64,000 bases of DNA from the NCBI GenBank assembly GCA_019694655.1, contig JAIBBN010000002.1, positions 1 to 64,000 on the forward strand, read 5' to 3'. The notes under the pieces were generated by a model. It saw only the letters and a program-made list of their open reading frames with translations, did not search any database and was not told the origin of the DNA. Every line of letters starts with the position of its first letter. Positions within the stretch are counted from its first letter, which is position 1. Positions 46,552 through 63,405 of this stretch are shown here, piece by piece. A program made the position numbers and the translations under genes. Origin of the DNA: Leptospirales bacterium (GTDB lineage Bacteria > Spirochaetota > Leptospiria > Leptospirales > Leptonemataceae).

Positions 46552-48588
46552 ATGGCAGGTGCGGGACTGTTCCCCAAAAGCCCTAACAAAATCGACCCGG
46601 TTATCCCGAGTGCGGTCGGTTCCCGGACCTCGCTGGTCTGGGAGGGACGCGATAAACCAGCGGAAGCAAAAAAGATCATAGATGAGACTGCGCGCTACAT
46701 CTCTGAATACACGCAAACCAAGTTGCCGCCTGAAGTTCTCAAAGATGTCGACATCATGGCGTCGATTGAGGACAAGATCTATAACTATATCAATCAGGCC
46801 TATGTGAACATGTTCAACCGTTACACGGTGACGGTTGAAGATGAAATGATTAAGAAAGTCCGCGACTTTGTGGACAAAGAAGAAATCAAGAGCCTTGCGC
46901 GTTACACGCCCAAGGAAATTGTTGAGCTGCTGGATAAGGTTGGCGGCTCGGATAAGTTCAATACCGGCGAACTGGAAAAGTCCGTGGTCAACATGTATGG
47001 CCACTTGCAAGGCCACATCCAGCGCGGGATGAACGATCTTGAGAACGAAACCAACGCCATCCTGCGCCAGAAGACGGATATCGGCGCCTTTGTTCGCGGC
47101 GAAAATGCCTACAGCATCGTTAAGTGCGCGTTCAAAGACAGCGCCTGGAAGCCAAAGACTGTAACAGATATCAAGCTCTCCATCAATATCCTTGATGCAG
47201 AATTGATCAGCCCGATCTTCCACTATCAGGTAACGGTTGAGCATCTGCTCAAAGAGCAGCTTTCCAAGCATATCACCGAACTGATCGATCGCGAAATCGA
47301 CAAGCTCAAGGAAGAGCTGGTCGATACCGGCCGCGCCGAAATGGGCGACAGCGAAGTCATGTTTGAGAAAATCAAACTGACTGAGAAGTTTACCGACGAT
47401 AATACCTCCGATCCGAACTCCAAGCGCTATACGATTATGGCCAAGAAGTTCATGGATAAGATCGAGGGTCTGCGCGCCGAGATTGATCAGGACGACTACG
47501 ACCCGCTCAATCTGCGCGAGCAAATTAAGAAGATCATCGACTCCGAGAACATTCGTAACCGCGGCTTTAACACCGCAGTAAACACGCTGACCTCGATTCT
47601 GGACACGTCTCGCCTGGGATATCAGTTCTGCGATAACAAGAAGAATGCCCGCGAGTGTACAATCCGCGAATACGAGGACCAAAACGACGTGGCCCTGCCG
47701 GATGAACGCTATGCGATGCGCTTGGTTTACTATGATCAAAACCAAATTCGCGAACTGAAGCGCATCTACGACACGCGCATTTCGGCATTTGTGCGCGAAG
47801 TGGACGCGGTCTGGGAAGTGGTGCACGCCCTCTACGAAAAGAAGAAAAAGCGCTTCTTTGGCCTGTCCCGTACAATGACGGACTTCGAGGATCTGACCGA
47901 AGAATTGATGCCGAAGAAATGGGTCCGGGAACGCAAGCAGCTGCTTGGCGATCCAGACGAGTTGCAGTGGAACAACCTGCAATTCCGCGATCCGGCCAAT
48001 ACCTTTGTAGAGAAGAACAACCGCACCTACACGGTGGAGATTTCCAACGTCGGGAAGCGCCTGGAGTATCTGCGCACTAAGCTGAACGACATGTTTGGCT
48101 ATCAGAACCCGGTGGAGCGCGTGGTTGTAGATGAGCGACTGAATCAGCTGTTCAAAGACTTCAACAAGTTCATCTACGAGATCAACCCGCACCATCTGCA
48201 GCCGGGACTGCTGCTGGACGTGGATATGACCACGACCAAGCGCAAGCAGTACATCATGAAGGCGATGGCCAACGTATTGAACGAGTTTCTGCATGGCGTT
48301 TCGGCAGGATTTGCCGATGCGGCTTTTGCCTCCTTCAAGCGCCGTCGCTCCACGGTTCGCTCGGACATCAACCAGGCCTTTGGCGAGGAAAGCAGTGGTG
48401 AAAGTGCAGCCTCTCTGGCCTACAAGGCTCATGAGGGCGGCGACGCCGGCGGCGCTCCGCCAGCCGCGCCTTCTTCGCCGACTCCTCCGCCCAGCTCTGG
48501 AGGCGGGGGATCCGTTCGAGGCGCTGCGGACGTAACTCCGCGCTCCTACGAGGACAAACTGAAAGAGATGGGTCTGAAGGAGCTCTGA
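46552..48588 (+). CDS. cfpA: Cytoplasmic filament protein CfpA (678 aa)
   Basis: I recognise this as the spirochaete cytoplasmic filament protein A family on length (678 residues, the same as treponemal CfpA) and the near N-terminal SRTSLVWEGRDKP block; this rests on memory, not alignment. Treponemal CfpA forms a ribbon of filaments beneath the inner membrane and is needed for normal division. The protein is rich in charged helices (Lys/Glu/Asp/Ile), consistent with a filament former, and ends in a flexible Ala/Pro/Gly/Ser tail before a conserved RSYEDKLKEMGLKEL end. No signal peptide or membrane segment. GGAGG lies seven bases before ATG 46552. A strong terminator follows, suggesting an abundant monocistronic product. 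AT-richer codons than its neighbours fit high expression or a distinct constraint. Confidence 0.75.
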   Translation: MAGAGLFPKSPNKIDPVIPSAVGSRTSLVWEGRDKPAEAKKIIDETARYISEYTQTKLPPEVLKDVDIMASIEDKIYNYINQAYVNMFNRYTVTVEDEMIKKVRDFVDKEEIKSLARYTPKEIVELLDKVGGSDKFNTGELEKSVVNMYGHLQGHIQRGMNDLENETNAILRQKTDIGAFVRGENAYSIVKCAFKDSAWKPKTVTDIKLSINILDAELISPIFHYQVTVEHLLKEQLSKHITELIDREIDKLKEELVDTGRAEMGDSEVMFEKIKLTEKFTDDNTSDPNSKRYTIMAKKFMDKIEGLRAEIDQDDYDPLNLREQIKKIIDSENIRNRGFNTAVNTLTSILDTSRLGYQFCDNKKNARECTIREYEDQNDVALPDERYAMRLVYYDQNQIRELKRIYDTRISAFVREVDAVWEVVHALYEKKKKRFFGLSRTMTDFEDLTEELMPKKWVRERKQLLGDPDELQWNNLQFRDPANTFVEKNNRTYTVEISNVGKRLEYLRTKLNDMFGYQNPVERVVVDERLNQLFKDFNKFIYEINPHHLQPGLLLDVDMTTTKRKQYIMKAMANVLNEFLHGVSAGFADAAFASFKRRRSTVRSDINQAFGEESSGESAASLAYKAHEGGDAGGAPPAAPSSPTPPPSSGGGGSVRGAADVTPRSYEDKLKEMGLKEL

Positions 48589-48610: not shown

Positions 48611-48644
48611 AGCCCGCAGGCCCTCAGGCCCGCGGGCTTTTTTT
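48611..48644 (+). terminator. Strong rho-independent terminator after cfpA
   Basis: AGCCCGC (48611-48617) pairs with GCGGGCT (48632-48638), and GGCC pairs with GGCC inside it around a CTCA loop. Seven T follow (48638-48644). It lies 23 bases after the cfpA stop and is the clearest intrinsic terminator on the plus strand of the window. Confidence 0.92.
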
Positions 48645-48715: not shown

Positions 48716-49741
48716 ATGCCCGCATTGACCAAAGAATATTTCGCTCTCGGGGCTCGAGATACATTCAATCAGGCCCTGCGCCATCTGGTCAATGTCAGTC
48801 AACTGGTCGAGCAGGTCGAAAAAGGGCAGAACATTGCGACGATACTCAATCAATTGCTGGAACACGGAGCAATTGTTCGGGAACAAGCGCCGCCGATTAT
48901 TTCTGTAGTTCTTCTGCAGCGATTGAAGGCCGCCTATCGCTCTATCAATTTGCGCGAATCAGTCTCAGACTTCTCGGCTATCGTAGAGCGGCTTAAGAAC
49001 TGGAATGCCATCGATATGACCGTGGTCTACTATGTGCCCAACGTCGGCCCGACTCCAATCAATCCAGCCAATGCAGAGCACTGGGAGCAAGTTCACGATT
49101 TGAAAAAGGATGAGCTGGTGGTGATCTACGCTCGCCATCTCAACGGTAAGGCTGAGATTGCAGAGAAGGCAGTACGATCCATGTCTGCACTGCTCAGCGG
49201 GCAGAGCGCCGAGGACGATCCCGAATTTGTCGACCGCCGCAAACTGGAGATGGAAAAGGCGCGAGAAGAGGCAATGGCCAAAGCTCGCGCCGACGCTGAG
49301 GCCAAAGCGGCGCGCGACGCCGCAGCCCGAGCAGCGGCCCCGGCGGCTGCGCCTGCGGCAGCGCCCGCAGCGCCAGCGGCAGCGCCTGCTGCTGCGGCGC
49401 CAGGCAAGAAGATGCAGCTGACGCCGAAGTATTCGGTACAGGTTACCAATGAACTGTTCCACAACGGAAATGTGGAGGCGTGGAAGAATATTATCGAATC
49501 GTACCACGAGTCGCATGCTGGCAGCAAGGTGATCGTCTACCACGAGTCAGAGTTGATTCAGGATTTGAATTCGCTGTTCAAGTGGGGCAAGGTGAAGCAT
49601 GGCGGCCTGATTTTTTTCCAGATTGCCGGACAGCAGATCAAAAATGTCAGCCGGCTTCAAAAGTATCTGTTCGAGGGCGCCTCGCCGCGTTTTGAGGCCT
49701 TTCTCAAGCACGATGTAAACAGAACTTTGAATCTGTTCTAA
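48716..49741 (+). CDS. Unrecognised two-domain protein with Ala/Pro linker (341 aa)
   Basis: Not recognised. An N-terminal helical and mixed domain (residues 1-165, for example LNQLLEHGAIVREQAPPIISVV and MTVVYYVPNVGP) is joined by a charged coiled coil (REEAMAKARADAEAK) and an Ala/Pro-rich linker (about 205-235) to a C-terminal 105-residue domain (SVQVTNELFHNGNVEAWKN to the end). No signal peptide or membrane segment, so it should be cytoplasmic. ATG 48716 has GAGG upstream; an in-frame TTG-type extension to 48653 would overlap the cfpA terminator and is rejected. It follows cfpA directly but beyond a terminator. The two neighbouring genes are the only hint to function. Confidence 0.72.
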   Translation: MPALTKEYFALGARDTFNQALRHLVNVSQLVEQVEKGQNIATILNQLLEHGAIVREQAPPIISVVLLQRLKAAYRSINLRESVSDFSAIVERLKNWNAIDMTVVYYVPNVGPTPINPANAEHWEQVHDLKKDELVVIYARHLNGKAEIAEKAVRSMSALLSGQSAEDDPEFVDRRKLEMEKAREEAMAKARADAEAKAARDAAARAAAPAAAPAAAPAAPAAAPAAAAPGKKMQLTPKYSVQVTNELFHNGNVEAWKNIIESYHESHAGSKVIVYHESELIQDLNSLFKWGKVKHGGLIFFQIAGQQIKNVSRLQKYLFEGASPRFEAFLKHDVNRTLNLF

Positions 49742-49776: not shown

Positions 49777-50490
49777 ATGTTTTCAGAGTATTTCAGCCGA
49801 CAGTCGGAGGATTTGCGCCGTGCCATAGCGGCGCAGCTCGCTCAGAGCGGGCCGCGCCCTCAAGGTCGCGACAGAGACCTCAGACTTTTCCAGGAGTTCT
49901 TTGCCTTTCTGGGCGAACATTTGCCGGCGGAGTTCGCCGTAGCTACCGGGAAGGTGCGCAGCAAGAAGCATCTCTTAAGTCGCGGTTGTGATGCGCTCAT
50001 TTTTCGTCGCTGGTTCCCGCGGTTGATCGAGGCCGCCGGAGGTTATGTCCCCAGCGAGGCTCTGCACGCCTTTCTTTCGCTGGAGGCGGAACTCACGCCC
50101 GCTACTCTGGCGACCCATTTGAATCTGACGCGCGCCATGAAAACGCTCTATGCCGGAGATCGCGAGTACCAAGGGGTCATCCCGGTCTTTTCGGTTCTGT
50201 TTGGCTACAGTTCGCAGCGCACGCTGCTACTCCTCCGCCAGGACATGAAAGATCTGGGCGATGAGAAGCAGATCCCGGCAAATTTCGAGCCGGACATGAT
50301 CGTCTGCCTGGATCGCGGAATGTTGATTAAGGATTGGGAGCAGGGCGGCGAGTACCGCGTCATTGAGACGCTGGAGGATACGCTGCTCTGGTTCTACATC
50401 CTGCTTGTGGAATATCTTGACCGCGATGGGCGTCTGAATTTGAATCTACGCGACACGGTTAAGGTCGCCAGGGAATACAACCAGTACTAG
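49777..50490 (+). CDS. Hypothetical protein, possible DUF6602-like (237 aa)
   Basis: Unrecognised with certainty. Blocks FAVATGKVRSKKHLLSRGCDALIF and NFEPDMIVCLDRGMLIKDW resemble the DUF6602 group, which I recall as uncharacterised proteins with a possible nuclease-like core; the resemblance is by eye and weak. No signal peptide or membrane segment is seen. ATG 49777 follows the previous gene by 35 bases, with only a weak ribosome site. It is followed by a GC-rich hairpin region without a T-run, then the VWA lipoprotein gene. Confidence 0.6.
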   Translation: MFSEYFSRQSEDLRRAIAAQLAQSGPRPQGRDRDLRLFQEFFAFLGEHLPAEFAVATGKVRSKKHLLSRGCDALIFRRWFPRLIEAAGGYVPSEALHAFLSLEAELTPATLATHLNLTRAMKTLYAGDREYQGVIPVFSVLFGYSSQRTLLLLRQDMKDLGDEKQIPANFEPDMIVCLDRGMLIKDWEQGGEYRVIETLEDTLLWFYILLVEYLDRDGRLNLNLRDTVKVAREYNQY

Positions 50491-50544: not shown

Positions 50545-51639
50545 ATGTTCAGGAAAGCGGCGCTGGCCACCGTACTACTTTTGGCGCTCGCCGCCTGCTC
50601 GCGTTCGCCCCGGGACTATATTCTGGTCATCGACGCCTCAGGATCGATGCAAGGCAGCGGCCTGATCGATGAGGTTAAGCAGGCGATGCCTGAATTTCTG
50701 GAATCAGTTGCTCCGGGCGATACGGTTACGGTCGTCAAATTCGATCGCAGCGCGGCGGTGGGCGAAACCATATCGATCGGCAGCGCCGAAGATCGCAGCA
50801 AGGTGGAGACCGCCGTAACTTCTATTCAGGCGCGCGGAGCCTATACGGATATGACCGCCATGCTGCGCGCTGTGGCCGAGCGGGCGCAGTCCGCCCCCGG
50901 TCGCGAGTCCTTCGTCGTTGTAATGTCCGATGGCAAGGACGATCCTCCTCCCGGTCGCAATCGCGAGCATGTTGATCTGGCGTCGATGCGCGATCCCGGC
51001 GCCGACGAGAAGATGAATGCCGCCTATATCTACTATATCAGTCTGGGACGACTGAAAGATCCGGCGCTGGAGGAAAATTTGCGACGAATCTCGCCGCACA
51101 CCGAAACCGTTCAGGCCGGGGCCGGGGTAGAGGGCAGCGAGGGCGCCACAGCCGGAGAGCGTACCGGTCTGGCCGACGTGGCACACGACATCGATCGCTT
51201 CGCCTGGCTGCGCTGGCTGAAAAGCAACTGGCAGTGGGCGGCGATTGGGGCCGGCATTTTGCTGGCCTTGCTCTTTGTAATCTGGCTAATCTACAAGATT
51301 GCTACTGGCGGGCGCGTGCGCGGCGCCATCGTTTACTATGAAGCGGGAGTCGGGCAGCCGGTGAAGTCTGTATACAATCTGGATAAACTGGACCGAAATC
51401 GATTTTCCATCGGCGCAAAACTGGGCGCCGACTTGCGTGTGCGCAACAGCGCTATTGCCCGAAATGTTACGCTGAAAGCGGCGGCAAAGAATGGTCAGAA
51501 TTTTCTACGTCCGGCCGCCAGTGATCGCGGACAATTCGAATTTCTAGCGCAACAAACAGAAGGACTGATATCTCCGGGCGACAGGTTCCGCCTGGGCAAT
51601 TTCATTTTTGAGTATGGCGATGGCTCAAGCGACAGATAG
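50545..51639 (+). CDS. VWA-domain lipoprotein with membrane helix and FHA-like tail (364 aa)
   Basis: A lipoprotein signal (ATVLLLALAAC lipobox LAAC) is followed by a von Willebrand factor A domain with a MIDAS metal site (DASGSM, the later Thr in AYTDMTAM and Asp in MSDGKDD). A transmembrane helix lies at about residues 232-254, and the C-terminal 110 residues (NRFSIGAKLGADLRVRNSAIA to FRLGNFIFEYGD) look like a degenerate forkhead-associated fold. Lipidation outside and an FHA-like domain past a membrane helix imply that it spans the inner membrane and could relay ligand state inwards (inference). ATG 50545 has GAGG five bases upstream. Its last 26 bases overlap the next gene. Confidence 0.78.
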   Translation: MFRKAALATVLLLALAACSRSPRDYILVIDASGSMQGSGLIDEVKQAMPEFLESVAPGDTVTVVKFDRSAAVGETISIGSAEDRSKVETAVTSIQARGAYTDMTAMLRAVAERAQSAPGRESFVVVMSDGKDDPPPGRNREHVDLASMRDPGADEKMNAAYIYYISLGRLKDPALEENLRRISPHTETVQAGAGVEGSEGATAGERTGLADVAHDIDRFAWLRWLKSNWQWAAIGAGILLALLFVIWLIYKIATGGRVRGAIVYYEAGVGQPVKSVYNLDKLDRNRFSIGAKLGADLRVRNSAIARNVTLKAAAKNGQNFLRPAASDRGQFEFLAQQTEGLISPGDRFRLGNFIFEYGDGSSDR

Positions 51640-54181
51640 CAAAGCGGCGGCTCGAGAATTTCTGCGTGAACTGCGCGGATCGGATCGCGTATTTCAAATC
51701 GATCGCGATACGGCGTTGGTTTTCAGCGGCATGCATCCCGATGATGTGCGGCCGTTTGTTCGGATCGGAGCGGGCCGTCAAATCCCGGACGCTATCCTGC
51801 GCCAGATTGAATATGTAATCCTGCCAGAGGACGATCCTTGCAACCTTGGCCTGGAACTGGCCTGGCTGGGCGCCACGGTTCAGAGCGGAGAAAAGACGAT
51901 TCGTTACGTTGGCAGTCGCGAGCGAGTCAATCAGGTCTACTCCTTTGCTGGGATGCCGGAGATTGACGAGCCCTCAGAACGGCCGGTGCAGCCGGTAATC
52001 TACCATGCCTTCCGCGCCCAGGACCTGAAACGCGACCATTTCACTACGGTCTTCATGACCAACGGCGATGCCGTGCTGCAGATGGGTTCCACGCGAATCT
52101 ATGATCATCATGCCAATCGACGCATTCGACTGACAATCGACAAGGAGTACGAGTTGCTCTCACGCGCGCTGGCGCGGCGCAAGCGAACGCTGGAAGCGGA
52201 ACAGGGCGAGGCCCCGCGCGGCTTCTACTGGCCGGGTCCAGAGTATGCTCCGTCGGCCAATGCCAACCAGATTTTCTGGAGTTTTGGCGCGTCAGGAGTC
52301 CTGCTCAATCCGAGCGCCGATCACCATCAGGTCTTGTTCGAACACGCCATCGATCCAGCGCGCGTCGACACTGTTCTGTCTTACTCGGCCAGCGCGCCAG
52401 GTTTTGCCGAGGCGCTGCGCCGCAAGAATTCAGAGCAGCGCCCCGGCGCGGCATTTACAGCCGATCAAGAAGCCTTTGGTCAGCTGCGACGGGCCTACCG
52501 CAATAGCAAGCTGCAGTTTGTCTCCGACGGCGCCAGTTTGCCGACGGCCCGCGACGTGCAGCTCTATATTTCGCGCACTGCTTCGCACGTCGCCTTCAGC
52601 TGGCGAACCGGCGGAGACCTGGACCGCGCCGTGCAGATTGTGGCCCCTCTTGGCGGGAAACGGCAATCGCGTTCCTTTGATTACATTCGCGGGCCTCACG
52701 ATCTGGAACTCAGACTGCTGAATGATCGCGAAGAGCTGAAAGAAAGCGGCGCCTCATTGACTTTGCTTCTGCCTGGCGAGGGTCGACAGGCCTTACTGGA
52801 TCGAATGCGTCTGAGCGCTGCGATGCTCCCGCTGCTTCCCGCAACGGAATACCTGCTGTATTCCAGTGAATCCCTGCGCGGCCTGTCCGAACACATCCTA
52901 TCTCCTTTTCACGGGACGGAACAAGAGGAGGCGATGCGTACGCTTCTCTTCCTTCATCTTGGGCTGGAGTTTTCGCCAGAAGCCCTGGGCGATGGTTTGC
53001 AGCAACTGGCGCTGCAGGCGCCGGCCGCGGATGTGGTTACGGCAATCAATGTCTCCCAGTACCTGCGCTACCTGCGCCTGCTGCCGGGCTTTGGCCAGTA
53101 CAGCGAACGGCATAAGAAGCTGCTGCAGCGCGCGGAATCGCGCTTTGATCCAGCGCGCTTTCGGTCAGCGGAGCTGCTTGCTCAGCGCTCACGACTGCGA
53201 GGACGAATCGCCATAGCGCCGGGACAGGGCGCTTTCCTGATTCTGGAAGCAATTGCGCCGCCAGCCGCGGAGCTGCGCTGCCCGCCGCCGGTGTCGGCGA
53301 TAGAAAGCGACCGCAAGGCCTATCCCAGGCTGGTCCGTCAGTGGAGTAAGCAGGTCAACAAAGCTGGCGATCCTGCAGGCTACGCCCAGTGCATTGAGGC
53401 GCTGGAGAAGTTGTACGAGTACCGTCTATTCCTGGTCGAGGAGCGGGATCGACTGCGCCGCACTCTGAACGGCCTTGGAATCGGTCAGGAACTCCAGAGC
53501 AGCAGTTTGCCAGATCCAGTGCAAGAGCAGGGGCCCGGTTTGCTGGAGCGGTTGCGTTCGTGGTTCAGCGGGGCCGGACGCGCGGCCGTAGCAATTCTGA
53601 TTGCGGCTATTGCACTGGCGGTCTTTACGGCCGGATTCTTTACGGTCAAGGCGCTGGCGGCATCCCTGGATTCTGGCGCGCCAGGCACGACTCTGCGGGG
53701 TGACAGCGCTGACGAGCAGCGCGCAGTTCAGCTGGCGCCTCCGGGCGCCGTCGAGTCCGGAGAACCGGCGCCCGGCGAGGACCAAATCCAGGCGCCAGCG
53801 CAGGAAGTGCTGCTCTATGCTAACGCGCTTGCATCGCGCAATGGATTTCGTCCAATCAATCGCGCCGGCGATCAGCGGCGCGATCCGGACCTGGTTTTTC
53901 CGGGCGATCGCTTGCGTCTGCCTGATGGACGCATTGCACTTGTCCAGCGCGGGCAGCATCTCTGGGAAATCGCTCAGAAGTTCTACAGGCGCGATATGGC
54001 GCGGTTATTGATCCTTGATCGGCAAATGTCGGCGCTGCTGCAGGATGGATTGTCAGCTGAGGTAGCTGCTTCGATAAAACAACACCGCAAGTTGATGCAA
54101 AGACTGGCGGTAACGCCGCAAATGAAAAAAGTCCTTGGCGATCGCGAGCAGGAAGTCCTCAGGCGTAATGCGCGCCCCTGA
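51614..54181 (+). CDS. Large unrecognised membrane protein with LysM-like tail (855 aa)
   Basis: No family recognised for the first 640 residues. Part of the N-terminal half (about residues 219-267) reads like a metallo-beta-lactamase fold that has lost its metal His residues: a FGASGVLLNP strand is followed by DTVLSYSASAPGF, where active enzymes have THxHxDH. A transmembrane helix lies at about 657-682, and a LysM-like motif (VQRGQHLWEIAQKFY) at about 773-790. The N-terminal bulk is therefore predicted on one side of the membrane and the LysM tail, probably peptidoglycan-binding, on the periplasmic side. ATG 51614 or 51620 both lie inside the preceding VWA gene; ATG 51614 has GAG close by. 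The overlap suggests coupled function with the VWA protein. Confidence 0.7.
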   Translation: MAMAQATDSKAAAREFLRELRGSDRVFQIDRDTALVFSGMHPDDVRPFVRIGAGRQIPDAILRQIEYVILPEDDPCNLGLELAWLGATVQSGEKTIRYVGSRERVNQVYSFAGMPEIDEPSERPVQPVIYHAFRAQDLKRDHFTTVFMTNGDAVLQMGSTRIYDHHANRRIRLTIDKEYELLSRALARRKRTLEAEQGEAPRGFYWPGPEYAPSANANQIFWSFGASGVLLNPSADHHQVLFEHAIDPARVDTVLSYSASAPGFAEALRRKNSEQRPGAAFTADQEAFGQLRRAYRNSKLQFVSDGASLPTARDVQLYISRTASHVAFSWRTGGDLDRAVQIVAPLGGKRQSRSFDYIRGPHDLELRLLNDREELKESGASLTLLLPGEGRQALLDRMRLSAAMLPLLPATEYLLYSSESLRGLSEHILSPFHGTEQEEAMRTLLFLHLGLEFSPEALGDGLQQLALQAPAADVVTAINVSQYLRYLRLLPGFGQYSERHKKLLQRAESRFDPARFRSAELLAQRSRLRGRIAIAPGQGAFLILEAIAPPAAELRCPPPVSAIESDRKAYPRLVRQWSKQVNKAGDPAGYAQCIEALEKLYEYRLFLVEERDRLRRTLNGLGIGQELQSSSLPDPVQEQGPGLLERLRSWFSGAGRAAVAILIAAIALAVFTAGFFTVKALAASLDSGAPGTTLRGDSADEQRAVQLAPPGAVESGEPAPGEDQIQAPAQEVLLYANALASRNGFRPINRAGDQRRDPDLVFPGDRLRLPDGRIALVQRGQHLWEIAQKFYRRDMARLLILDRQMSALLQDGLSAEVAASIKQHRKLMQRLAVTPQMKKVLGDREQEVLRRNARP

Positions 54182-54217: not shown

Positions 54218-54553
54218 CTATTGTGGAAGCCTTTCGCTCAGCAGGCGCTGGATATCGGCAATAAAGCGGGCATGATTTTCCAGCATCGACTCCAATTCTG
54301 CAAAGTGCTGCTGCTCCATCATGCTGCGTACAAGCTCGGCCAGATTCTGGCGGACAAGAGCATCCAGGGACTGCCCTGATTGTCGTTGCGGCGACATGGC
54401 GCCAGCATTGCGCAAGATCTCGCCGATTCGTTGCGCTCTGGCTGTGCGCGCCTGTGCCGGATTTTCCGGCGCCGGTCGATTCTTTTCTTCGAAGTCAGGG
54501 CTCCGTGGGCGGCGCAGGTATTCACGCAGCGATTCGGGAGTAAATTCTTCCAT
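54218..54553 (-). CDS. Small hypothetical protein (111 aa)
   Basis: Unrecognised. A charged, helical protein with an N-terminal SLREYLRRPRSPDFEEK stretch and a C-terminal amphipathic half (LVRQNLAELVRSMMEQQ and ESMLENHARFIADIQRLL) that may oligomerise. No signal peptide or membrane helix. GGAGGG lies seven bases before ATG 54553, a strong ribosome site, so it is likely to be translated. It is convergent with the LysM-tailed gene (36-base gap) and divergent from the GGDEF gene (138 bases). Confidence 0.65.
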   Translation of the reverse strand: MEEFTPESLREYLRRPRSPDFEEKNRPAPENPAQARTARAQRIGEILRNAGAMSPQRQSGQSLDALVRQNLAELVRSMMEQQHFAELESMLENHARFIADIQRLLSERLPQ

Positions 54554-54691: not shown

Positions 54692-55747
54692 GTGGAACCA
54701 ATCAGCGAGCTGGAAAAACTGCGGCGGGAAAACCAGCGATTGCATCGCGCCCTCGAACTCAATGCGCTGCTATCGTCCAGCCTGGATCTTGGCGTAGTTC
54801 TTGATTCCTTGATGGGTCTGGCCCGCGATCTGCTGGAGGCCGAGGCATCCAGCCTGATGTTGCTGGATGAGGCCAGCCAGGAGCTGTACTTTCACACGGT
54901 CAAAGGCGAGAAGAGCGAGGCAATCAAGACGATTCGACTCAAGCTTGGCGAGGGTATAGCCGGCTGGGTAGCCCGCGAAGGCAAACCGGTGCTGGTAGCC
55001 GATGCGGCCTCGGATCCCCGCTTTTATCGTCGCGCCGACCAAAGCTCCGGCTTTGTTACGCGTAGTATGATGTGTGCGCCGCTTAAGGCGCGACGTCGAA
55101 TTGTCGGGACAGTTCAAGTTTTGAACAAACGCGACGGGAACCTTTTTACGGAGCAGGATCTGGCCCTCTTCGAGATTCTGGCCAACCAGGCCGCCATCGC
55201 AATCGAAAATGCGCGCCTCCATACCATGGCCACGGTCGATGGAATGACCGGGCTCTACATTAAGAGCTATTTTCAGGCCCGGATGGAGGAGGAATTTCGT
55301 CGCAGTAAGAATACCGGGCAGCCCTTGAGTTTGCTGATGTCGGACATTGATTTTTTTAAGAAGGTCAATGACAACTACGGCCATCAGGGCGGGGACGCCG
55401 CCTTGATTGAACTGGCGCGCGTAATCAAAGATACGGTGCACAGGCTGGGCAGCGACGACATGGCGGGTCGCTACGGCGGAGAGGAGTTCTGCGTTTTATT
55501 GCCTCAATCCGGTCCGGAGCGGGCGCTGGAAGTGGGGGAGATGATTCGCAAGAACATCGAGACCAATGCAATCCCCATAGGCGACCGCGAGGCGCATATC
55601 ACCATATCCATCGGGGTTTCGAGTTTTCCGCTTCACGATGGACAGATTCAGGGGACGGAAGATTTCATACGTCTTGCCGATGAAGCGCTCTACCTGTGCA
55701 AGAATCGCGGGCGCAATTGCGTCGCCCTGTACGAAACCGCGCAATAA
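54692..55747 (+). CDS. GAF-GGDEF diguanylate cyclase (351 aa)
   Basis: A short coiled coil (SELEKLRRENQRLHRAL) leads to a GAF domain (about residues 25-165, with LGEGIAGWVAREGKP and SMMCAPLKARRRIVGTVQVLN) and then a C-terminal GGDEF domain with an intact active site (GRYGGEEFCVLL). It should make cyclic di-GMP from two GTP. The inhibitory RxxD site, expected five residues before GGEEF, reads GSDD, so product inhibition is probably absent. The GAF ligand is unknown. It starts with GTG 54692 with GAGG six bases upstream. In spirochaetes c-di-GMP affects motility, and motility genes lie downstream in this window. Confidence 0.93.
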   Translation: MEPISELEKLRRENQRLHRALELNALLSSSLDLGVVLDSLMGLARDLLEAEASSLMLLDEASQELYFHTVKGEKSEAIKTIRLKLGEGIAGWVAREGKPVLVADAASDPRFYRRADQSSGFVTRSMMCAPLKARRRIVGTVQVLNKRDGNLFTEQDLALFEILANQAAIAIENARLHTMATVDGMTGLYIKSYFQARMEEEFRRSKNTGQPLSLLMSDIDFFKKVNDNYGHQGGDAALIELARVIKDTVHRLGSDDMAGRYGGEEFCVLLPQSGPERALEVGEMIRKNIETNAIPIGDREAHITISIGVSSFPLHDGQIQGTEDFIRLADEALYLCKNRGRNCVALYETAQ

Positions 55748-55832: not shown

Positions 55833-58430
55833 ATGAGCCAGATCTACGCTTTTAGCCAGCAGGGATGTACCGCCGACCGTGAAGTCTGGGGGCGCTCCGG
55901 AAAACGAGGGCAGCGGGCGCTGGAACTGGCCGAATTAAAAATGCCGGTAGTGCCTGGCTTCATCCTGGATTCGCGCGCCGCAGCCCGCCTGGGTCAGATG
56001 GACCCTAAAGGCCTGCTGCAGCAGGGCATTCCCGCGATCGAGCAACTCATTGGACGCAAATATGGCGATGCCGAAAACCCGCTGCTGTTGAAGGTCGTCT
56101 GCAGCTCCAATCTGGCGCTGCCCATCTATCCAACCGTTTTTAACGTGGGCCTCTCCCCGGTGACGATCCCGGGATTTGCTCGCTTTATGGGCGAAGAGGC
56201 GGCGTGGTTCGAGTACTGTTATCTGTTGCGCACTGCCGGAACCAAACTCTTCGATATCGCCGGCGCAAAGTTTGACGAAATAGAAAAGCGTTTCGATCGC
56301 AGCGTCGATGGTCGCAAGGCCTGCGCCCAGGAGATGCGCAACTTGATTGGACCGGAGCGCATTCCGGATGATCCACTGGCGCAGCTGGAAGCGATCTGCA
56401 AAGAGGCGGCGCGTAAGTACCACGATGCCGACCTTGATGAAGATGACAACGTCGCCCTGATGGTTCAGGGAATGGTCTTTGGCAATCTGACGCCCAATGA
56501 CATCGTGGGCATGTTCTTTACGCGCAATACTGTATCTGGCGAAAATCGACTGCAGGGCAGCTTTCTGCAGCACGCCTATACCCTGGATCGCGACGGCCTG
56601 GATATCAATCAGCTTGACTCTGTCTATCTGGAGGAATTGAAAAAAATCGGCCGCACTCTGGAGCACCGCTTTCGCGAACTGCGCGAGGTGAAGTTCATAG
56701 TTGAAAACGGCAAGATCTGGCTGATCAACCAGACCCAGGAAGATAACAAGTCCACGCAGGCGCACATCAAGACGCTGCTCGACCTGATGAAGGAAGGAGT
56801 GGTGGAAGAGTCCTGGGTGGTGCAGCAGATTCCGCCGGGCCAGCTGGCGACCTTACTGCACCCTGTGGTAGACGCCGCTTCGATTCAGGGCATTCCCAAG
56901 GTCGAGGGCGGTCTGGCCGGTTCGCCCGGCGCCGCTGTCGGGCGCGTATTCTTTTCCGCTGACTCGCTGATGGAGGCCCATCGCGAAGCCACCCTGAAAG
57001 GCCTGGACAGTCGGCTGATCTTGATGGTTGAAGCGAGCTTTGCTGAAGATGTGAAAGCCATTGAAGTTGGGCAGGGCGTGATATCGGTCGAGGGCGGCTA
57101 CTCCTCGCACGCGCCGGTGGTGGCGCGCTCGCTTGGCAAAGTGAGCATCGTCAACCCCGCGATTCGCATCCACGGGAAGCAGTTCGAACTGAACGGCGTT
57201 GTGGTGAAAGAAGGCGACTACGTAACCATGGATGTTCCCTTCTATAAGGCCCCGGCGATTTTTCTTGGCAAGGCGCAATTGATCAACCCGGACATCCAAT
57301 CGAATGGTCTCGTAGAATTCATCGAGGTCATCCGGCGTCACATAGATCCATCCTTTGTGGTGCGCGCCAATGCAGACCTGGGCCGTGATGCCAAAGTCTC
57401 CAAGACCATGGGTGCATACGGCATTGGACTGTGCCGCACGGAGCACATGTTCTTTGCAGAAGACCGCATCATGCGCTTCCGCGAGATGATTCTGGCTAAA
57501 GACAGCGAGGAGCGTCTGCGCGCATTGGAAGACCTGCGTCCCGTACAGCGCCAGGATTTCTATGATCTGTTCAGCACCATGGCGCCCTATCCGGTGACCA
57601 TCCGCTTGCTCGATGCTCCACTGCATGAGTTTTTGCCGCGCAATGAGGGCGTGCTAAAGGATTATCTCGAATATCTGCAGAAGAAGGGCCATAGCCCGGA
57701 TCGCGAGGAAATCGAATCCCGCATCGAACGCCTGCACGAATTCAATCCGATGCTCGGTCATCGTGGTTGTCGCGTCGCAATCACCTATCCTGAAATCTAC
57801 GAGATGCAGGTGCGCGCAATTCTCGAAGCGGCCTGCAAGCTTCGCAAAGAAGGCGTGGAAGTTATTCCGGAAATCATGATCCCCATTGTCATGAATCCGT
57901 CGGAACTCAGCATGCTGCGCAACGGCAAGCGAATCGAAGGCAAGCACATCCGCGGTATTGTCGATGTCGCTCGCGAAGTCTTTCAGGCGGAGGGCGTGCA
58001 CATCGAATACAAGGTTGGAACCATGGTGGAATTGCCGGCGGCGGCCCTGCTTTCCGACGAACTGGCGCGCTATGCCGAGTTTTTCAGCTATGGCACGAAC
58101 GACCTGACGCAGACGACTTTCGGTCTCAGCCGCGACGATGTGAATAGCTTCTTCCCGGCCTACACCGAGTACGACCTTCTGCCAAACAATCCCTTCCAGG
58201 TGCTGGGCGGTGCGGTGAAAGAATTGATCGGACTTTCGGCGGTACGCGGGCGCATGACGCGCCCCGATATCAAGCTTGGACTTTGCGGCGAGCACGGCGC
58301 GGACCCGGCCAACATTGAGTTCTGTCGCCAGGCTGGCCTGAGTTACGTTTCCTGTTCCGCTTACAGCGTGCCGATCGCGCTGCTGGCTGTGGCCCAGCTA
58401 ACCTTGAAAGAAAAGGCGGCTGCAAAATAG
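55833..58430 (+). CDS. Pyruvate phosphate dikinase homologue with degenerate ATP-grasp half (865 aa)
   Basis: Length and domain order match pyruvate phosphate dikinase. The swivelling His domain is intact (GGYSSHAPVVA, His426), as is the PEP/pyruvate barrel (GLCRTEHMFF, TIRLLDAPLHEF, HRGCRVAITYPEI, GTNDLTQTTFG, Cys841 in YVSCSAY). The N-terminal nucleotide-binding half has lost the usual signatures: the GGKG loop reads SGKRG, SVRSGA reads KVVCSSN, the NAQGED stretch is absent, and LQTRxGKR reads INQTQEDNK. ATP-dependent phosphorylation is therefore doubtful; a role as regulatory or PEP-dependent phosphotransferase is possible (inference). ATG 55833 has GGAG eight bases upstream. A bidirectional terminator follows at 58505-58532. 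Confidence 0.85.
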   Translation: MSQIYAFSQQGCTADREVWGRSGKRGQRALELAELKMPVVPGFILDSRAAARLGQMDPKGLLQQGIPAIEQLIGRKYGDAENPLLLKVVCSSNLALPIYPTVFNVGLSPVTIPGFARFMGEEAAWFEYCYLLRTAGTKLFDIAGAKFDEIEKRFDRSVDGRKACAQEMRNLIGPERIPDDPLAQLEAICKEAARKYHDADLDEDDNVALMVQGMVFGNLTPNDIVGMFFTRNTVSGENRLQGSFLQHAYTLDRDGLDINQLDSVYLEELKKIGRTLEHRFRELREVKFIVENGKIWLINQTQEDNKSTQAHIKTLLDLMKEGVVEESWVVQQIPPGQLATLLHPVVDAASIQGIPKVEGGLAGSPGAAVGRVFFSADSLMEAHREATLKGLDSRLILMVEASFAEDVKAIEVGQGVISVEGGYSSHAPVVARSLGKVSIVNPAIRIHGKQFELNGVVVKEGDYVTMDVPFYKAPAIFLGKAQLINPDIQSNGLVEFIEVIRRHIDPSFVVRANADLGRDAKVSKTMGAYGIGLCRTEHMFFAEDRIMRFREMILAKDSEERLRALEDLRPVQRQDFYDLFSTMAPYPVTIRLLDAPLHEFLPRNEGVLKDYLEYLQKKGHSPDREEIESRIERLHEFNPMLGHRGCRVAITYPEIYEMQVRAILEAACKLRKEGVEVIPEIMIPIVMNPSELSMLRNGKRIEGKHIRGIVDVAREVFQAEGVHIEYKVGTMVELPAAALLSDELARYAEFFSYGTNDLTQTTFGLSRDDVNSFFPAYTEYDLLPNNPFQVLGGAVKELIGLSAVRGRMTRPDIKLGLCGEHGADPANIEFCRQAGLSYVSCSAYSVPIALLAVAQLTLKEKAAAK

Positions 58431-58559: not shown

Positions 58560-59408
58560 TTAGCGGAGAAGCTGCAGGACTGTCTGCGTCTTCATATTCG
58601 ATTGAGCGACCATTGCCGTCGCCGCCTGCACCAGGATCTGGTAGCGGGTGAAGCTTGACATCTGCTCGGCCATATCTGTATCGCGAATTCGTGATTCGGC
58701 TGCCTGAATGTTCTCGTAGGCATTCATCAGTCCCTTGGCGGCATGCTCCAGGCGATTCTGATAAGCGCCCAGATCGGCGCGCTGCTTGGAAATGCGGCGC
58801 AGAGCGTCGTCCGCCAGGCCGATCACCGAGTTGGCTTTGTCTGGAGTGCTGATCGAGATAAAGGTCAGAACGGTCGGATTGCGCAGTCCCAACGCTGCCG
58901 TGGTCATGGTGTTGATGAACACACGCTCGCGCTGGTGCATGTTGGCGCCCATATGGAACCACATCGATGCCGTCGGATTCAGGCGAGCAAAGGCGCCGGT
59001 CAGCATTTTCATCTTGTTGAATTCCGCCTGCGAAGCAATGCGATCGATCTCGTCGATCAGCTGCGAAACTTCAACCTGAATCTGCTGGCGATCCTCTTCA
59101 GTGTAAATGCCGTTGGCGGCCTGGACGGCCAGCACGCGGATTCGCTGAATCATGTTCTGCGTTTCCTGCAGATAGCCTTCGGTCGTTTGAATGAAAGAAA
59201 TGCCATCTTCGGTGTTGCGAACGGCCTGTCGCAAACCATGCACCTGAGTGCGCATCTTTTCCGATACCGCCAATCCGGCGGCATCGTCGCCGGCGCGGTT
59301 GATGCGCATACCGGAGGACAGTTTCTCGATATCCTTCGACATTTCCATGTCGTGGAACTTCAGTGTGCGATGGGAAAAGATCGCGCTGATGTTGTGATTG
59401 ATAATCAT
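58560..59408 (-). CDS. flaB: Periplasmic flagellar core protein FlaB (282 aa)
   Basis: A flagellin of the spirochaete core-filament type. It has the conserved coiled-coil ends ([16 protein letters not shown] with [19 protein letters not shown], and the C-terminal [22 protein letters not shown] with QTVLQLLR) and the central [18 protein letters not shown] that marks spirochaete FlaB. Length (282 residues) is typical of Leptospira FlaB proteins. It assembles into the core of the periplasmic filament. GGAGG lies seven bases before ATG 59408. A terminator shared with the dikinase gene lies at the 3' end. The class of its promoter could not be read: a GCCGA-like -10 for sigma-28 has no matching -35. 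Confidence 0.95.
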
Positions 59409-59564
59409 CTCGGGTCCTCCATGAACCTCTGCGCCGTCGTACTCAAACGCCCTGCGCTCATCATCCTCGGCAAATACGCCTCAGGCAAAAGATCGGTGCG
59501 TTGGCGCAGCGACGCTTGACTTTTTTTTCAGGAGTCGCCTCGGCCAGCAGGCTCGGCGGGACCT

Positions 59565-59592
59565 TTGTCCCTCCAACAAAGCTTTCTATAAA
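59565..59592 (+). promoter_or_regulatory. Likely sigma-70-like promoter of the methyltransferase gene
   Basis: TTGTCC (59565-59570) and TATAAA (59587-59592) are separated by 16 bases, with the ATG at 59638. Four and five of six positions match the consensus. It lies in the 230-base gap between the divergent flaB and methyltransferase genes. Confidence 0.5.
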
Positions 59593-59637
59593 TGCGCGGC
59601 CGGACGCCGGACGACGAAGGTCGATAAGCTCTGCAGA

Positions 59638-60885
59638 ATGCGCCAGGCCCAATCTGCAGCAATCTCCCGCAAAGCAAGATCGCCGGAGGCATCGGAGCTT
59701 CGCCTGACGGCAGCCGACGCCCACTGTCCGGTGCGCGAAGGGGAATTCTGGACGGCGCGACAGCGTCAAATGCATCCGCTGCACTACGCGGTAAGCTATC
59801 GCGCCTCCTTCAAACCGGAGCTGCCGGATTTCTTTATCAGGCGCTGCCTGGACGAGGCGCATCGTCGGCGAGCCGTGGTGCTTGATCCCTTTGGCGGCAG
59901 AGGAACTACGGCGCTGCAGGCCAACATGCTGGGTTGTCGCGCCATCCACAATGACCTCAATCCGGTGTCGCTGTTCATTGCTGGCGCGCGCAGTCACGTT
60001 CCCGAGCTTGCAACACTGGAGCAGCGGCTGGCTGCGCTGCCAATAGAGCAGGGCGCGAGCTTCAGCACGGAGGACCTTCGCCGCCTGGGTCCTTTCTTTC
60101 ACCAGCAGACCCTGGCCGAATTGTGCTTTTTGCGCAATGCACTGCGCTCGCCCGAGGCGCAAGAGGATCATGCCCTGCGCTACATTGGAATGACAGCCCT
60201 GTCGCGCCTGCATGGCCATTCCGACGGCTTCTTCTCCGTTTATTCCTTTCCGCAAATATCAATTCTGCCTGCAGCCCAGGAGCGTAACAACCGCCGCCGC
60301 GGTCTGCGTCCGGAGTACCGCAACCTGCGTCAGCGCATTCTGAAAAAGATGCGCCAGGATCTTCAGGAAGAACTGCCAGAAGCCTACCGGCGCAGCGCTC
60401 GTCGCAATCGCATCCTCCGCGAAGATGCCGCGCGGCTCAAGCCATTGCGCACCGGAAGCGTGGACCTGATCGTTACCTCGCCGCCATTCCTGGATAAAGT
60501 AAACTACCTTCAGGACAACTGGATGCGCGCCTGGTTTCTTGGCGTGGAGGACGAGGCCGAGGAGCGGCCGCCGACGGTAACCCAGCGCTTGAGCGTCTGG
60601 CAGTCCTTTATGGGCCGCGTAATGTCCGAAATGCAGCGCCTGCTGCGATCGGGCGGGCGCGCGATCATAGAAGTTGGCGAGGTCAGCTTCGGCGGCCAAA
60701 CGCTCAATCTGGAAGAGGCGCTGCTGGCTGCGCTGCCCGGGCCCGACCGCTATGGCCGGCTGCTGGCCGAGGAGGTGCTGATCAACCGCCAGCGATTTAC
60801 CAAACTTGCCAATTGCTGGGATGTCACCAACAATGAGCGCGGCATAAACAGCAATCGCTGCCTGGTCCTGCGCAAAGCGCAATAA
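59638..60885 (+). CDS. Orphan site-specific DNA methyltransferase (415 aa)
   Basis: An AdoMet-dependent methyltransferase. The AdoMet loop is VLDPFGGRGTTALQANMLG (about residues 80-98), and the catalytic loop is VTSPPFLDKVNY (about 280), with 190 residues between. The TSPPF form of the catalytic motif fits N4-cytosine or N6-adenine methylation of DNA. The motif order (AdoMet loop first) differs from the common beta class in which TSPPY comes first. Residues 1-40 are variable. No restriction endonuclease gene is adjacent, so it looks like an orphan; a role in gene regulation is possible. ATG 59638 has a weak ribosome site. An RNA substrate cannot be excluded from the sequence. Confidence 0.82.
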   Translation: MRQAQSAAISRKARSPEASELRLTAADAHCPVREGEFWTARQRQMHPLHYAVSYRASFKPELPDFFIRRCLDEAHRRRAVVLDPFGGRGTTALQANMLGCRAIHNDLNPVSLFIAGARSHVPELATLEQRLAALPIEQGASFSTEDLRRLGPFFHQQTLAELCFLRNALRSPEAQEDHALRYIGMTALSRLHGHSDGFFSVYSFPQISILPAAQERNNRRRGLRPEYRNLRQRILKKMRQDLQEELPEAYRRSARRNRILREDAARLKPLRTGSVDLIVTSPPFLDKVNYLQDNWMRAWFLGVEDEAEERPPTVTQRLSVWQSFMGRVMSEMQRLLRSGGRAIIEVGEVSFGGQTLNLEEALLAALPGPDRYGRLLAEEVLINRQRFTKLANCWDVTNNERGINSNRCLVLRKAQ

Positions 60886-60927
60886 TCGCCGGCGGCGATC
60901 GATCGCTTTTGCTCATGGATTCCCGCC

Positions 60928-60955
60928 GGGGACCGATAGAAGTCATGAGGTCCCC
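60928..60955 (+). promoter_or_regulatory. 7-bp hairpin covering the flgG ribosome site
   Basis: GGGGACC (60928-60934) pairs perfectly with GGTCCCC (60949-60955) around a 14-base loop. The GAGG that probably serves flgG (60947-60950) is half inside the 3' arm, and the start codon is six bases after it. If it forms in the mRNA, initiation at flgG would be reduced until the stem is opened. A second short palindrome with TTTT (60895-60910) lies just upstream and might end the methyltransferase transcript. Confidence 0.55.
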
Positions 60956-60960
60956 TGTCT

Positions 60961-61758
60961 ATGCTTCGTTCCCTCTGGACTGCCGCCACGGGCATGATTG
61001 CCCAGCAATACAATATTGATACGATCTCTAACAATCTGGCCAACGTAAACACCTACGGCTTCAAGAAGAACCGGGCCGATTTTGAAGACCTGGTCTACCA
61101 ACATCAGGTGCTGGCTGGCACGCCGGCCACGGCCGTTTCTGAGATCCCCACCGGAGTCTACTTTGGCCACGGCGTGCGCGTTGCCGCCACACAGAAGCTC
61201 TTTGAAATGGGCAGTTTGCAGGCTACCGGCGAGAAGTTTGACATGGCCGTCGCCGGAGAGCAGGGTTTCTTCAAAGTGTTGCTGCCCGACGGCACATTTG
61301 CCTATACGCGCGACGGAAGCTTCAAGATCGACTCGCGCCAGCAAATCGTGACCGCCAATGGCTACTTGCTGGAGCCGCCGATCACGCTGCCGCCCGGAGC
61401 GCGCAACGATCGCTTTCAAGTTTCAGAAAACGGCGAAGTGACGGTCATCATCGGCGATGATATCCGGCCGACCAGAATCGGCCAGATAGATCTCTACCGA
61501 TTTGTCAACCCCGCCGGACTCAAAGCCATCGGCAACAACCTGTTCAAGGAAACGGTGGCCAGCGGCCCCGAGATTCAGGGAACCCCCGGTCTGGAGGGGA
61601 TGGGCAAGCTACTGCAGGGCTTCCTGGAAACCTCCAACGTCAAGCTGGTCGAGGAAATGGTAAATATGATCGTCGCTCAGCGCGCCTATGAATCGAACTC
61701 AAAGGCCGTAACGACCTCCGATTCGATGCTGGGTACAGCGATAGCGATGAAACGATGA
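60961..61758 (+). CDS. flgG: Flagellar distal-rod protein FlgG (265 aa)
   Basis: An axial rod component of the flagellar motor. The N-terminal signature LWTAATGMIAQQYNIDTISNNLANVNTYGFKK and the C-terminal block GFLETSNVKLVEEMVNMIVAQRAYESNSK are both typical; length is close to that of enterobacterial FlgG. It is the first of four motility genes; the stop overlaps the flgA ATG as ATGA (61755-61758). Its ribosome site GAGG is partly within the hairpin at 60928-60955. Second FlgF-like rod genes are not present in this window. Confidence 0.97.
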   Translation: MLRSLWTAATGMIAQQYNIDTISNNLANVNTYGFKKNRADFEDLVYQHQVLAGTPATAVSEIPTGVYFGHGVRVAATQKLFEMGSLQATGEKFDMAVAGEQGFFKVLLPDGTFAYTRDGSFKIDSRQQIVTANGYLLEPPITLPPGARNDRFQVSENGEVTVIIGDDIRPTRIGQIDLYRFVNPAGLKAIGNNLFKETVASGPEIQGTPGLEGMGKLLQGFLETSNVKLVEEMVNMIVAQRAYESNSKAVTTSDSMLGTAIAMKR

Positions 61759-62765
61759 TGCGCTGTTGCGTCGCGGCTCTTCTGATTGCCCTGGGACTGC
61801 CTGCGGTCCTTGAAGCGCAAAGCATCTACCTGCGCTCCAGCGCGGAGATCGAGGGCCCGCGGGTCCAGCTGGATCAGATCGCTCGTATTGAGGGGGCGCC
61901 TCAGCTGCAGCGCCAGACGCTTTTTGACAATTTGCGTTCGCCGCGCTATCTGCGATCCGCTGAATTGCAAGCAGCGCTTGCCGCTCGCGGACTTGGCGGG
62001 GCGCGGGTTTTTGGCGATGGCGTCTGGATTGTGCCGGGCGTGCGTAGTCTGGATTCCGGCGCCCTGCAAACGATGCTCGAAGCCGCAATTCGCGCCCGAC
62101 CCGATGGCGAACGATTGCTGAGTGAATGTCGAATTGCCGTGGCGCCCCAGACCGCATTCCGCGTCCCAGAATCAGGGATTGAGCTCCGCTTGCAGCTTCC
62201 GGCGCGCTTGAGCTCCATTGCCGCCGGTCGGATGATCCTTGCTCTGGACGGCCTCAGCGCGGATCCGCACGGAGGAACAAGAACGATATTTCGTAAACAG
62301 ATTCCAGTGCAGATATTTCGACGACTGCCCGTAGCGATTGCCGTGCGTGATCTGGCGATAGGCGAACGTCTGCAGGCGCAGGACTATCGCATCGAGCAGC
62401 GTGAATTTGAAGCGCTAGAAGATCGCTATCCGGTGGCGAGATTGGACGGAATGCGCGTCATGTCTCCGGTGCGTCAGGGTGCGATGTTAACGGCCTCCAG
62501 CATCCAGACTCAGCCTTCGGTACGACGCGGACAGAGTCTCGAGTTGACTTACCAGGCGGACGGACTTGTGCTCCGACTGCGCGGCGCTGCTCTGGAGGAG
62601 GGCGAGCCCGGAGATCAGATCCGGGTACGGCCCCTTTTTCCGGCCGCCCGGCGGGCCGATACTGTCTTGAGGGCGCGTATTGTCAGCGAATCATCCGCCG
62701 AGGTCGATCTGGCCGCAGAGGAATCCCATGAAGCAAGCGAGCAACCGGCAACTCCTGGCGCTTAG
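61755..62765 (+). CDS. flgA: Flagellar P-ring assembly chaperone FlgA (336 aa)
   Basis: A periplasmic chaperone for P-ring formation. An N-terminal signal peptide (CCVAALLIALGLPAVLEA) is followed by an LDQIARIEG-type domain and the C-terminal SAF-like region (AVRDLAIGERLQAQDYRIEQRE, RLDGMRVMSPVRQGAMLTAS and the final region with GQSLELTYQADGL). It is longer than the E. coli protein (219 residues), chiefly in the N-terminal half. It starts within the flgG stop. Its last 38 bases overlap the flgH start, so translation is coupled. Confidence 0.9.
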   Translation: MMRCCVAALLIALGLPAVLEAQSIYLRSSAEIEGPRVQLDQIARIEGAPQLQRQTLFDNLRSPRYLRSAELQAALAARGLGGARVFGDGVWIVPGVRSLDSGALQTMLEAAIRARPDGERLLSECRIAVAPQTAFRVPESGIELRLQLPARLSSIAAGRMILALDGLSADPHGGTRTIFRKQIPVQIFRRLPVAIAVRDLAIGERLQAQDYRIEQREFEALEDRYPVARLDGMRVMSPVRQGAMLTASSIQTQPSVRRGQSLELTYQADGLVLRLRGAALEEGEPGDQIRVRPLFPAARRADTVLRARIVSESSAEVDLAAEESHEASEQPATPGA

Positions 62766-63405
62766 CGTCGCGACGCTGCTGGCGGCCACCGTGCTGGGCG
62801 CCCAATCGCTGTGGCGCGATCAAAACCCTTATAATCCGCGTCAGGATATACGCGACGGCGTGGTGCTGCGCCTGGTCGTAGACGAACCAATCATTCTGGA
62901 CTACGAGTACGAAAACACATCTGACCAAAACGTCGTGATCAAGCTGAATCCTGATCAAAAGCTATTCGAATTCTTGCCGCCAGCGGATTCCAACCAGTCG
63001 ATTACCAACAAACGCACCAACCGAGTGCGGGCGCGGAGCCGTCTGAGCTTCCGCATTGCCGTTCAGGCCCAGGGCGATCCCAGCAACGGCGTTGTCAGTT
63101 TCGTCGGCCGAAAGCTGCTCGCCTATGAGAACGGCCGCAGCCGCCAGGAATTACAGATCAGCGGGCGAGTACACGTCAATGATATACACAATGGCAGAAT
63201 GGTACACTCCAATGATGTTGCTGAGTTGCAAATTGTCATGGCTGGCGCCCCGGTTCCGCAGTCGCAGGAATTGCCATTGAAGCAGGCGGAAGCGGCCAAC
63301 GGACAGCCGCCTGGACCAAGCGCTCAAATCAATGAGCAGGAGCGCGCTCGGCTGCTGCTGGATCATCTCAATCGAATTCTGGGAGAAACGGCCAGTGATC
63401 GCTAG
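62728..63405 (+). CDS. flgH: Flagellar L-ring-like protein FlgH (225 aa)
   Basis: Homologue of the L-ring protein. After a signal peptide (LLALSVATLLAATVLGA) comes the family start SLWRDQNPYNPR, then the conserved core, and GRVHVNDIHNGRMVHSNDVAELQIV. FlgH of Gram-negatives with external flagella is a lipoprotein; here the signal peptide ends at Ala-Gly-Ala-Gln with no lipobox Cys, so it should be cleaved by signal peptidase I and remain soluble in the periplasm. ATG 62728 has AGAGGA six bases upstream and lies inside the flgA 3' end. Its last bases overlap the GTG of flgI. Confidence 0.87.
   Translation: MKQASNRQLLALSVATLLAATVLGAQSLWRDQNPYNPRQDIRDGVVLRLVVDEPIILDYEYENTSDQNVVIKLNPDQKLFEFLPPADSNQSITNKRTNRVRARSRLSFRIAVQAQGDPSNGVVSFVGRKLLAYENGRSRQELQISGRVHVNDIHNGRMVHSNDVAELQIVMAGAPVPQSQELPLKQAEAANGQPPGPSAQINEQERARLLLDHLNRILGETASDR

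Follow-up and report, generated by a model that had tools for sequence, protein, structure and literature searches.

The 64,000 bp stretch of DNA analysed here (the window; positions 1 to 64,000 of contig JAIBBN010000002.1 of a Leptospirales bacterium) carries a run of forward-strand genes that begins with cfpA and ends with a gene related to pyruvate phosphate dikinase (PPDK). The first of these (46552-48588) encodes the cytoplasmic filament protein CfpA, with a score of 880 bits against NF040882.1 (cutoff 500). It is followed on the same strand by a terminator-like stem-loop with a T run (48626-48639), recognized by pattern match only, which may allow an excess of CfpA to be produced, and then by an unnamed gene of the TP0747/TDE0843 family (48716-49741) whose product has a predicted HPr-like C-terminal domain. 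Three further genes come next, namely one with a weak, below-cutoff match to DUF6602 (49777-50490), one encoding a VWA-domain protein (50545-51639) and one encoding a large protein with a weakly matched LysM-like C-terminus (51608-54181). A GAF-GGDEF gene (54692-55747) lies directly upstream of the PPDK-like gene (55833-58430). Between the LysM-like and GGDEF genes, a short ORF on the minus strand (54218-54553) has relatives in the corresponding position of 11 loci and is possibly a real small protein.

The whole block is kept in the host family, while in distant spirochetes only cfpA, the unnamed gene and the PPDK-like gene are found together, in that order, and these three form the core cassette. 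We did not retain the GGDEF, VWA and LysM neighbours as parts of the system, since they, like the gene at 49777-50490, are conserved within the host family only. Across the phylum, the PPDK-like gene has no metabolic neighbours in common. The first-pass annotation of the PPDK-like gene missed this filament operon, which is its main context. Of 296 Spirochaetota genomes, 105 carry the PPDK-like gene and 109 carry CfpA; the two occur together in 102 and singly in 10 (p = 1.7e-66, related genomes being counted as separate). The unnamed gene occurs in 106 of the 296, and of the 112 genomes with at least one of the three genes, 101 have the full set (again with related genomes counted separately); the exceptions are mostly incomplete MAGs. 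In three genomes (G100, G094 and G121) the genes lie on three different contigs and all are kept, indicating that the link is more than an accident of operon structure. The tie between the PPDK-like gene and the CfpA filament is thus well supported by synteny and co-inheritance.

The PPDK-like gene encodes a putative PEP:His phosphotransferase of 865 amino acids. It shares with PPDK (TIGR01828; PDB 1KBL, 1VBG and 5JVJ) full-length homology, the three-domain fold, the phospho-histidine and a complete PEP/pyruvate site; its closest solved relatives are PPDKs, and its AlphaFold model (pLDDT 91) matches PPDK structures. However, it scored 677 bits against the PPDK equivalog TIGR01828, below the cutoff of 843, and 23.3 bits against PPDK_N, under the cutoff of 27, while its PEP-utiliser domains both gave strong matches. 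The degenerate ATP-grasp domain spans residues 1-345 (55833-56867) and is the fastest-evolving domain of the clade described below. The codon of the phospho-acceptor His426 (His455 of the clostridial enzyme) lies at 57108-57110, this histidine being invariant in 53 of 53 sequences. The PEP/pyruvate-binding domain comprises residues 501-860 (57333-58412), in which Arg535, Arg591, Asp594, Glu733, Asn756, Asp757 and Cys818 are all invariant. A second, canonical ppdK, the presence of which the first-pass annotation had left as a point to check, is encoded on this contig as well, at a distance of about 55 kb (C2:113200-115890), and its product is 41% identical to the 865 amino acid protein.

When the protein was aligned with canonical PPDKs, the signatures that had been picked out by eye as altered in the N-terminal half were found to be replaced. 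GGKG reads GKRG, with Arg25 at the position of Lys22; SVRSGA reads KVVCSS, with Val89 at that of Arg92; NAQGED reads HAYTLD; and QTRxGKR reads NQTQEDNK, with Gln302 for Arg337. In addition, the DxE of positions 321/323 is ExK at 285/287, where Glu285 and Lys287 stand for Asp321 and Glu323 (Lys22, Arg92, Asp321, Glu323, Gln335, Arg337 and His455 follow clostridial PPDK numbering). Lys22 and Arg337 have been studied as site residues, as far as the PDB titles of the K22A (1JDE) and R337A (2DIK) entries tell. The role of the other ATP-site residues was reportedly described by Ye et al. in 2001.

The same replacements recur in 51 of 51 relatives across the phylum, which rules out both chance and bad sequence, and the first reading of an inactive-looking ATP half, made on one protein, is now strongly supported as a property of a whole clade. 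Lys22 is Arg in all 51 clade sequences and Arg92 is Val or Ile in all 51; Asp321 is retained by none, Arg337 is likewise not among the residues found at its position, and Glu323 is replaced by Lys or Arg in 50 of 52. As a test of membership in PPDK, the set Lys22, Arg92, Asp321, Glu323 and Arg337 is kept in 0 of 51 members, so by these residues the protein should not be filed as a PPDK. Gln335 is the only classic ATP-site residue that was kept (in about 51 clade sequences). In contrast, again in clostridial numbering, His455 (here His426), Arg561, Arg617, Asp620, Glu745, Asn768, Asp769 and Cys831 are invariant in all 51-53 sequences, in agreement with the earlier view that the phosphohistidine and PEP/pyruvate domains are complete. 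Positions that are invariant in canonical PPDKs were lost at 50 of 107 sites in the N domain and at 11 of 128 in the PEP domain (Fisher p = 2.5e-11). The sequences thus make a dead ATP site a well-supported reading. Against it stand the conservative nature of the Lys22 to Arg exchange and the retention of Gln335; the earlier claim that Lys22 and Arg92 are gone holds in that both are replaced, with the correction that position 22 has become Arg.

Relatives with 64-77% identity were found in about 20 genomes of the host family and others with 45-54% identity are spread through the Spirochaetota; all named matches of at least 44% identity are from Spirochaetota MAGs or unclassified MAGs. In a tree of the C-terminal half, all 41 degenerate sequences fall on one side of a single branch with 100/100 support, so that the degeneration is most simply explained by one old event. 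The protein is therefore a member of one Spirochaetota-wide paralogue clade, separate from canonical PPDK, from which it also differs in its linkage to cfpA. Mean identity within this clade is 41% for the N domain and 62% for the PEP domain, in contrast to 60% and 62%, respectively, in canonical PPDK, which suggests that the N domain is under weaker or different constraint only in the degenerate clade. Five basic residues of the clade's N domain are newly invariant (Arg25, Lys87, Arg284, Lys/Arg287 and Lys/Arg306), suggesting that the remodelled domain still does something in most members. In one complete genome (G215, locus L163), the PPDK-like ORF is 587 amino acids long and lacks the whole ATP-grasp domain; the frame is open, it keeps the phospho-His motif and the PEP site, and its start overlaps the stop of the upstream HPr-like gene. 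Without an ATP-grasp domain, this protein cannot be a dikinase by itself. In another complete genome, that of a Treponema (G287), the gene is broken up within the PEP domain into two frames that overlap (L157:3394-6077), which could be a frameshift, an error or a true two-piece enzyme.

The unnamed protein encoded between cfpA and the PPDK-like gene has no Pfam or NCBIfam family and no match to PF00381. Conservation is highest in its last 100 residues, and its C-terminal domain, which starts at about 49415, has a beta-alpha-beta-beta-alpha-beta-alpha topology in the AlphaFold (AF2) model. In a Foldseek search, nearly all of the best PDB matches were HPr phosphocarriers (probabilities of 0.94-1.00, target TM values of up to 0.71, but E of only about 0.03), and an HPr fold is thus predicted. 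The motif NELFHNGNVEAW, which includes His249 (codon 49460-49462, + strand), is kept in 43 of 43 sequences and in five further ones. This histidine caps the N-terminus of helix 250-266 and, by secondary-structure register, would occupy the place of His15 of HPr. On the other hand, an hhalign comparison of the domain with 29 HPrs was not significant (probability 3%, P = 0.015), though in register for the second half, and Arg17 of HPr is neither found at the equivalent place nor conserved. Given the non-significant profile match and the missing arginine, we regard the domain as a predicted fold with a suggestive histidine rather than a proven HPr. The N-terminal domain of the protein (48716-49200) is a well-predicted alpha/beta domain with no family match, which by eye resembles the N-terminal domain of GspE/MshE; the block also includes a GGDEF gene. 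Some GspE/MshE N-terminal domains bind c-di-GMP.

The same cassette is found in T. pallidum and T. denticola. In T. pallidum Nichols (G097) the order is TP0748 (cfpA), TP0747 and TP0746; the ORFs of 901 and 678 amino acids have the published sizes of TP0746 and TP0748 (PMC3373638), and the published TP0746 variant sites at nt 810772 (A869) and 811414 (P655) fall on the right residues (PMC10013896). TP0746 is of the degenerate type and is the sole PPDK-family match of this genome. T. denticola ATCC 35405 (G183) was recognized by a published strain primer that matches its genome exactly and at one site only; here cfpA is TDE0842, the HPr-like gene is TDE0843 and the degenerate PPDK is TDE0844. 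Among 16 major proteins of a T. denticola envelope fraction, band 1 was TDE0844, reported as PPDK, and band 3 was the CfpA protein TDE0842, the presence of which was explained by its authors by membrane anchoring (PMC3931704). TDE0842-44 are also repressed together (PMC3914990), and a T. denticola cfpA mutant, which lacks filaments, shows defects affecting division and the chromosome (PMC3398590). The filament link of the PPDK-like gene therefore rests on co-inheritance, synteny and published co-fractionation and co-regulation. Bridging and anchoring parts of the filament have been described as structures, judging from the title of Izard 2004 as cited in PMC3398590. In the open-access literature we found only CfpA identified among filament parts, no named genes for bridging or anchoring, no phosphorelay or partner enzyme for CfpA filaments, and no papers on TP0747, a degenerate PPDK or a link between HPr and the cytoskeleton.

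The organization of the pair recalls the PTS, in which PEP phosphorylates a histidine of Enzyme I and then HPr. The PPDK-like protein has PEP-binding and phospho-His domains homologous to those of Enzyme I (a stretch in TIGR01417; Foldseek match to 2HWG) and a predicted HPr fold is encoded next door, so that phosphate would pass from PEP to a histidine and then, probably, to an HPr-like protein. In contrast to Enzyme I, it has no helical HPr-docking domain, its N domain is ATP-grasp-like and its TIGR01417 score (103.7 bits) is below the cutoff of 341.7; for lack of the score and of the docking domain, we rejected the label of an ordinary Enzyme I. The pair also differs from Enzyme I and HPr in deriving from PPDK and in being associated with a cytoskeletal filament and not with sugar transport. 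At other places, the host genome also encodes an ordinary HPr and a homologue of the size of Enzyme I. The swivelling phospho-His domain is shared with rifampin phosphotransferase (RPH), PEP synthase and glucan water dikinase. However, RPH and the glucan dikinases have retained the ATP half and altered the acceptor half, while the present protein has retained its PEP half and lost its ATP half. The resemblance to the CfpA filaments of treponemes lies in the NF040882.1 match of the neighbouring cfpA and in the PPDK-like gene belonging to the same operon.

We hypothesize that a PPDK paralogue gave up the ATP half of its reaction. Its PEP domain would bind PEP and phosphorylate His426 on the swivelling domain, as the invariant catalytic residues suggest, and without a working ATP-grasp site the phosphate would go to a protein and not to AMP and PPi. 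The most likely acceptor would be His249 in the HPr-like domain of the adjacent gene product. The pair would then work like Enzyme I and HPr, dedicated to the CfpA filament and co-inherited with it, and could report PEP or energy status to the filament or drive its assembly, bridging or anchoring. The loss of the ATP site, together with adjacency to and co-inheritance with cfpA and the HPr-like gene, suggests that PEP is probably used to phosphorylate a filament-associated protein. The first-pass proposal that phosphate from PEP is passed to a protein gains indirect backing from the invariant PEP/His machinery, from the G215 protein that keeps only the His and PEP domains, and from the adjoining, co-inherited candidate acceptor; its other half, an acceptor other than a protein, is considered below. 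We give the complete relay, from PEP through His426 to the HPr-like protein in the service of the filament, a probability of about 0.5, given that the HPr likeness is only structural, that the HPr-docking helical domain of Enzyme I is absent and that proteins found together in a crude envelope fraction need not form a complex.

Alternatively, the protein could be a filament-bound sensor or scaffold that binds PEP, perhaps autophosphorylates on His426 and serves as a structural or regulatory part, for example in bridging or anchoring, without passing the phosphate on. Moonlighting metabolic enzymes are known on bacterial filaments, as in the case of CTP synthase with crescentin. Co-inheritance and synteny with cfpA fit such a role, as does the finding of both TDE0844 and CfpA among the major envelope proteins (PMC3931704). 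We consider it doubtful, since the perfect conservation of His426 and the PEP-catalytic residues, even after loss of the N domain, exceeds what a scaffold needs, and the HPr-like partner would be left unexplained.

It is unlikely that His426~P is instead transferred to a small molecule or altered nucleotide held in a new basic pocket of the N domain (Arg25, Lys87, Arg284, Lys/Arg287 and Lys306). The invariance of these residues implies that the domain keeps a conserved job in most members and its fold is kept in the model, but it is the least conserved part of the protein in this clade and is absent in G215, and the gene has no metabolic neighbours common across the phylum.

Even less likely is that the protein has remained an ordinary, ATP-forming PPDK whose active site has changed. 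ATP production from PEP was credited to TP0746 by previous authors (PMC10013896), and its transcript level has been read as pyruvate metabolism (PMC8525777). We found no match to pyruvate kinase (PF00224) or PPDK_N in the T. pallidum Nichols genome, while pyruvate kinase is present in 17 further spirochetes and in each of 14 control genomes. This might be taken to mean that TP0746 has to have remained a dikinase, and the conservative Lys22 exchange and the retained Gln335 also speak for an ordinary PPDK. However, Arg92, Asp321, Glu323 and Arg337 are lost in all members, a further PPDK-family match is present in 91 of 105 carriers, and the N domain can be lost altogether, as in G215. Moreover, T. 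pallidum Nichols encodes a GTP-PEPCK (contig C1, 141081-142181) and an oxaloacetate decarboxylase beta subunit (66496-67560), which together offer another possible route from PEP to pyruvate. Finally, a decaying pseudogene or sequencing artefact, to which the split gene of G287 and the shortened one of G215 might point, has a negligible probability, being refuted by intact orthologues (64-77% identical in the family, 45-54% across the phylum) and an invariant PEP site; the conserved clade likewise rules out decay or sequencing error in this single genome.

If the relay does operate, it would be a second PTS-like phosphorelay, built from PPDK and not from Enzyme I, with an HPr-like protein that receives its phosphate from PEP and either controls or builds a cytoskeletal filament. 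Such a direct chemical link between glycolysis and the cytoskeleton, conserved through the filament-bearing Spirochaetota and mislabelled in T. pallidum as an ATP-making glycolytic step, is a broader proposal that we put forward tentatively, at somewhat short of even odds. Cytoplasmic filaments were recognized in spirochetes decades ago, and two candidate filament parts can now be named, TDE0843 and TDE0844 in the genetically tractable T. denticola, corresponding to TP0747 and TP0746 in T. pallidum. A step in the energy metabolism of T. pallidum is also brought into question, with ATP production assigned to TP0746 in a genome without pyruvate kinase or canonical PPDK; should TP0746 be no dikinase, PEP would need a different exit from glycolysis, such as the route by GTP-PEPCK and oxaloacetate decarboxylase. 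Recurrent amino-acid variants have been reported in both TP0746 and TP0748, with E501G and C31Y between T. pallidum Nichols and Chicago and A869T and P655S among cultured clones (PMC3373638, PMC10013896).

Downstream of the cassette, the region 58560-63405 holds a flagellin gene on the minus strand, followed by a DNA methylase gene (59638-60885) directly before flgG and other flagellar genes, an arrangement that recurs in three other loci (L036, L138 and L148).
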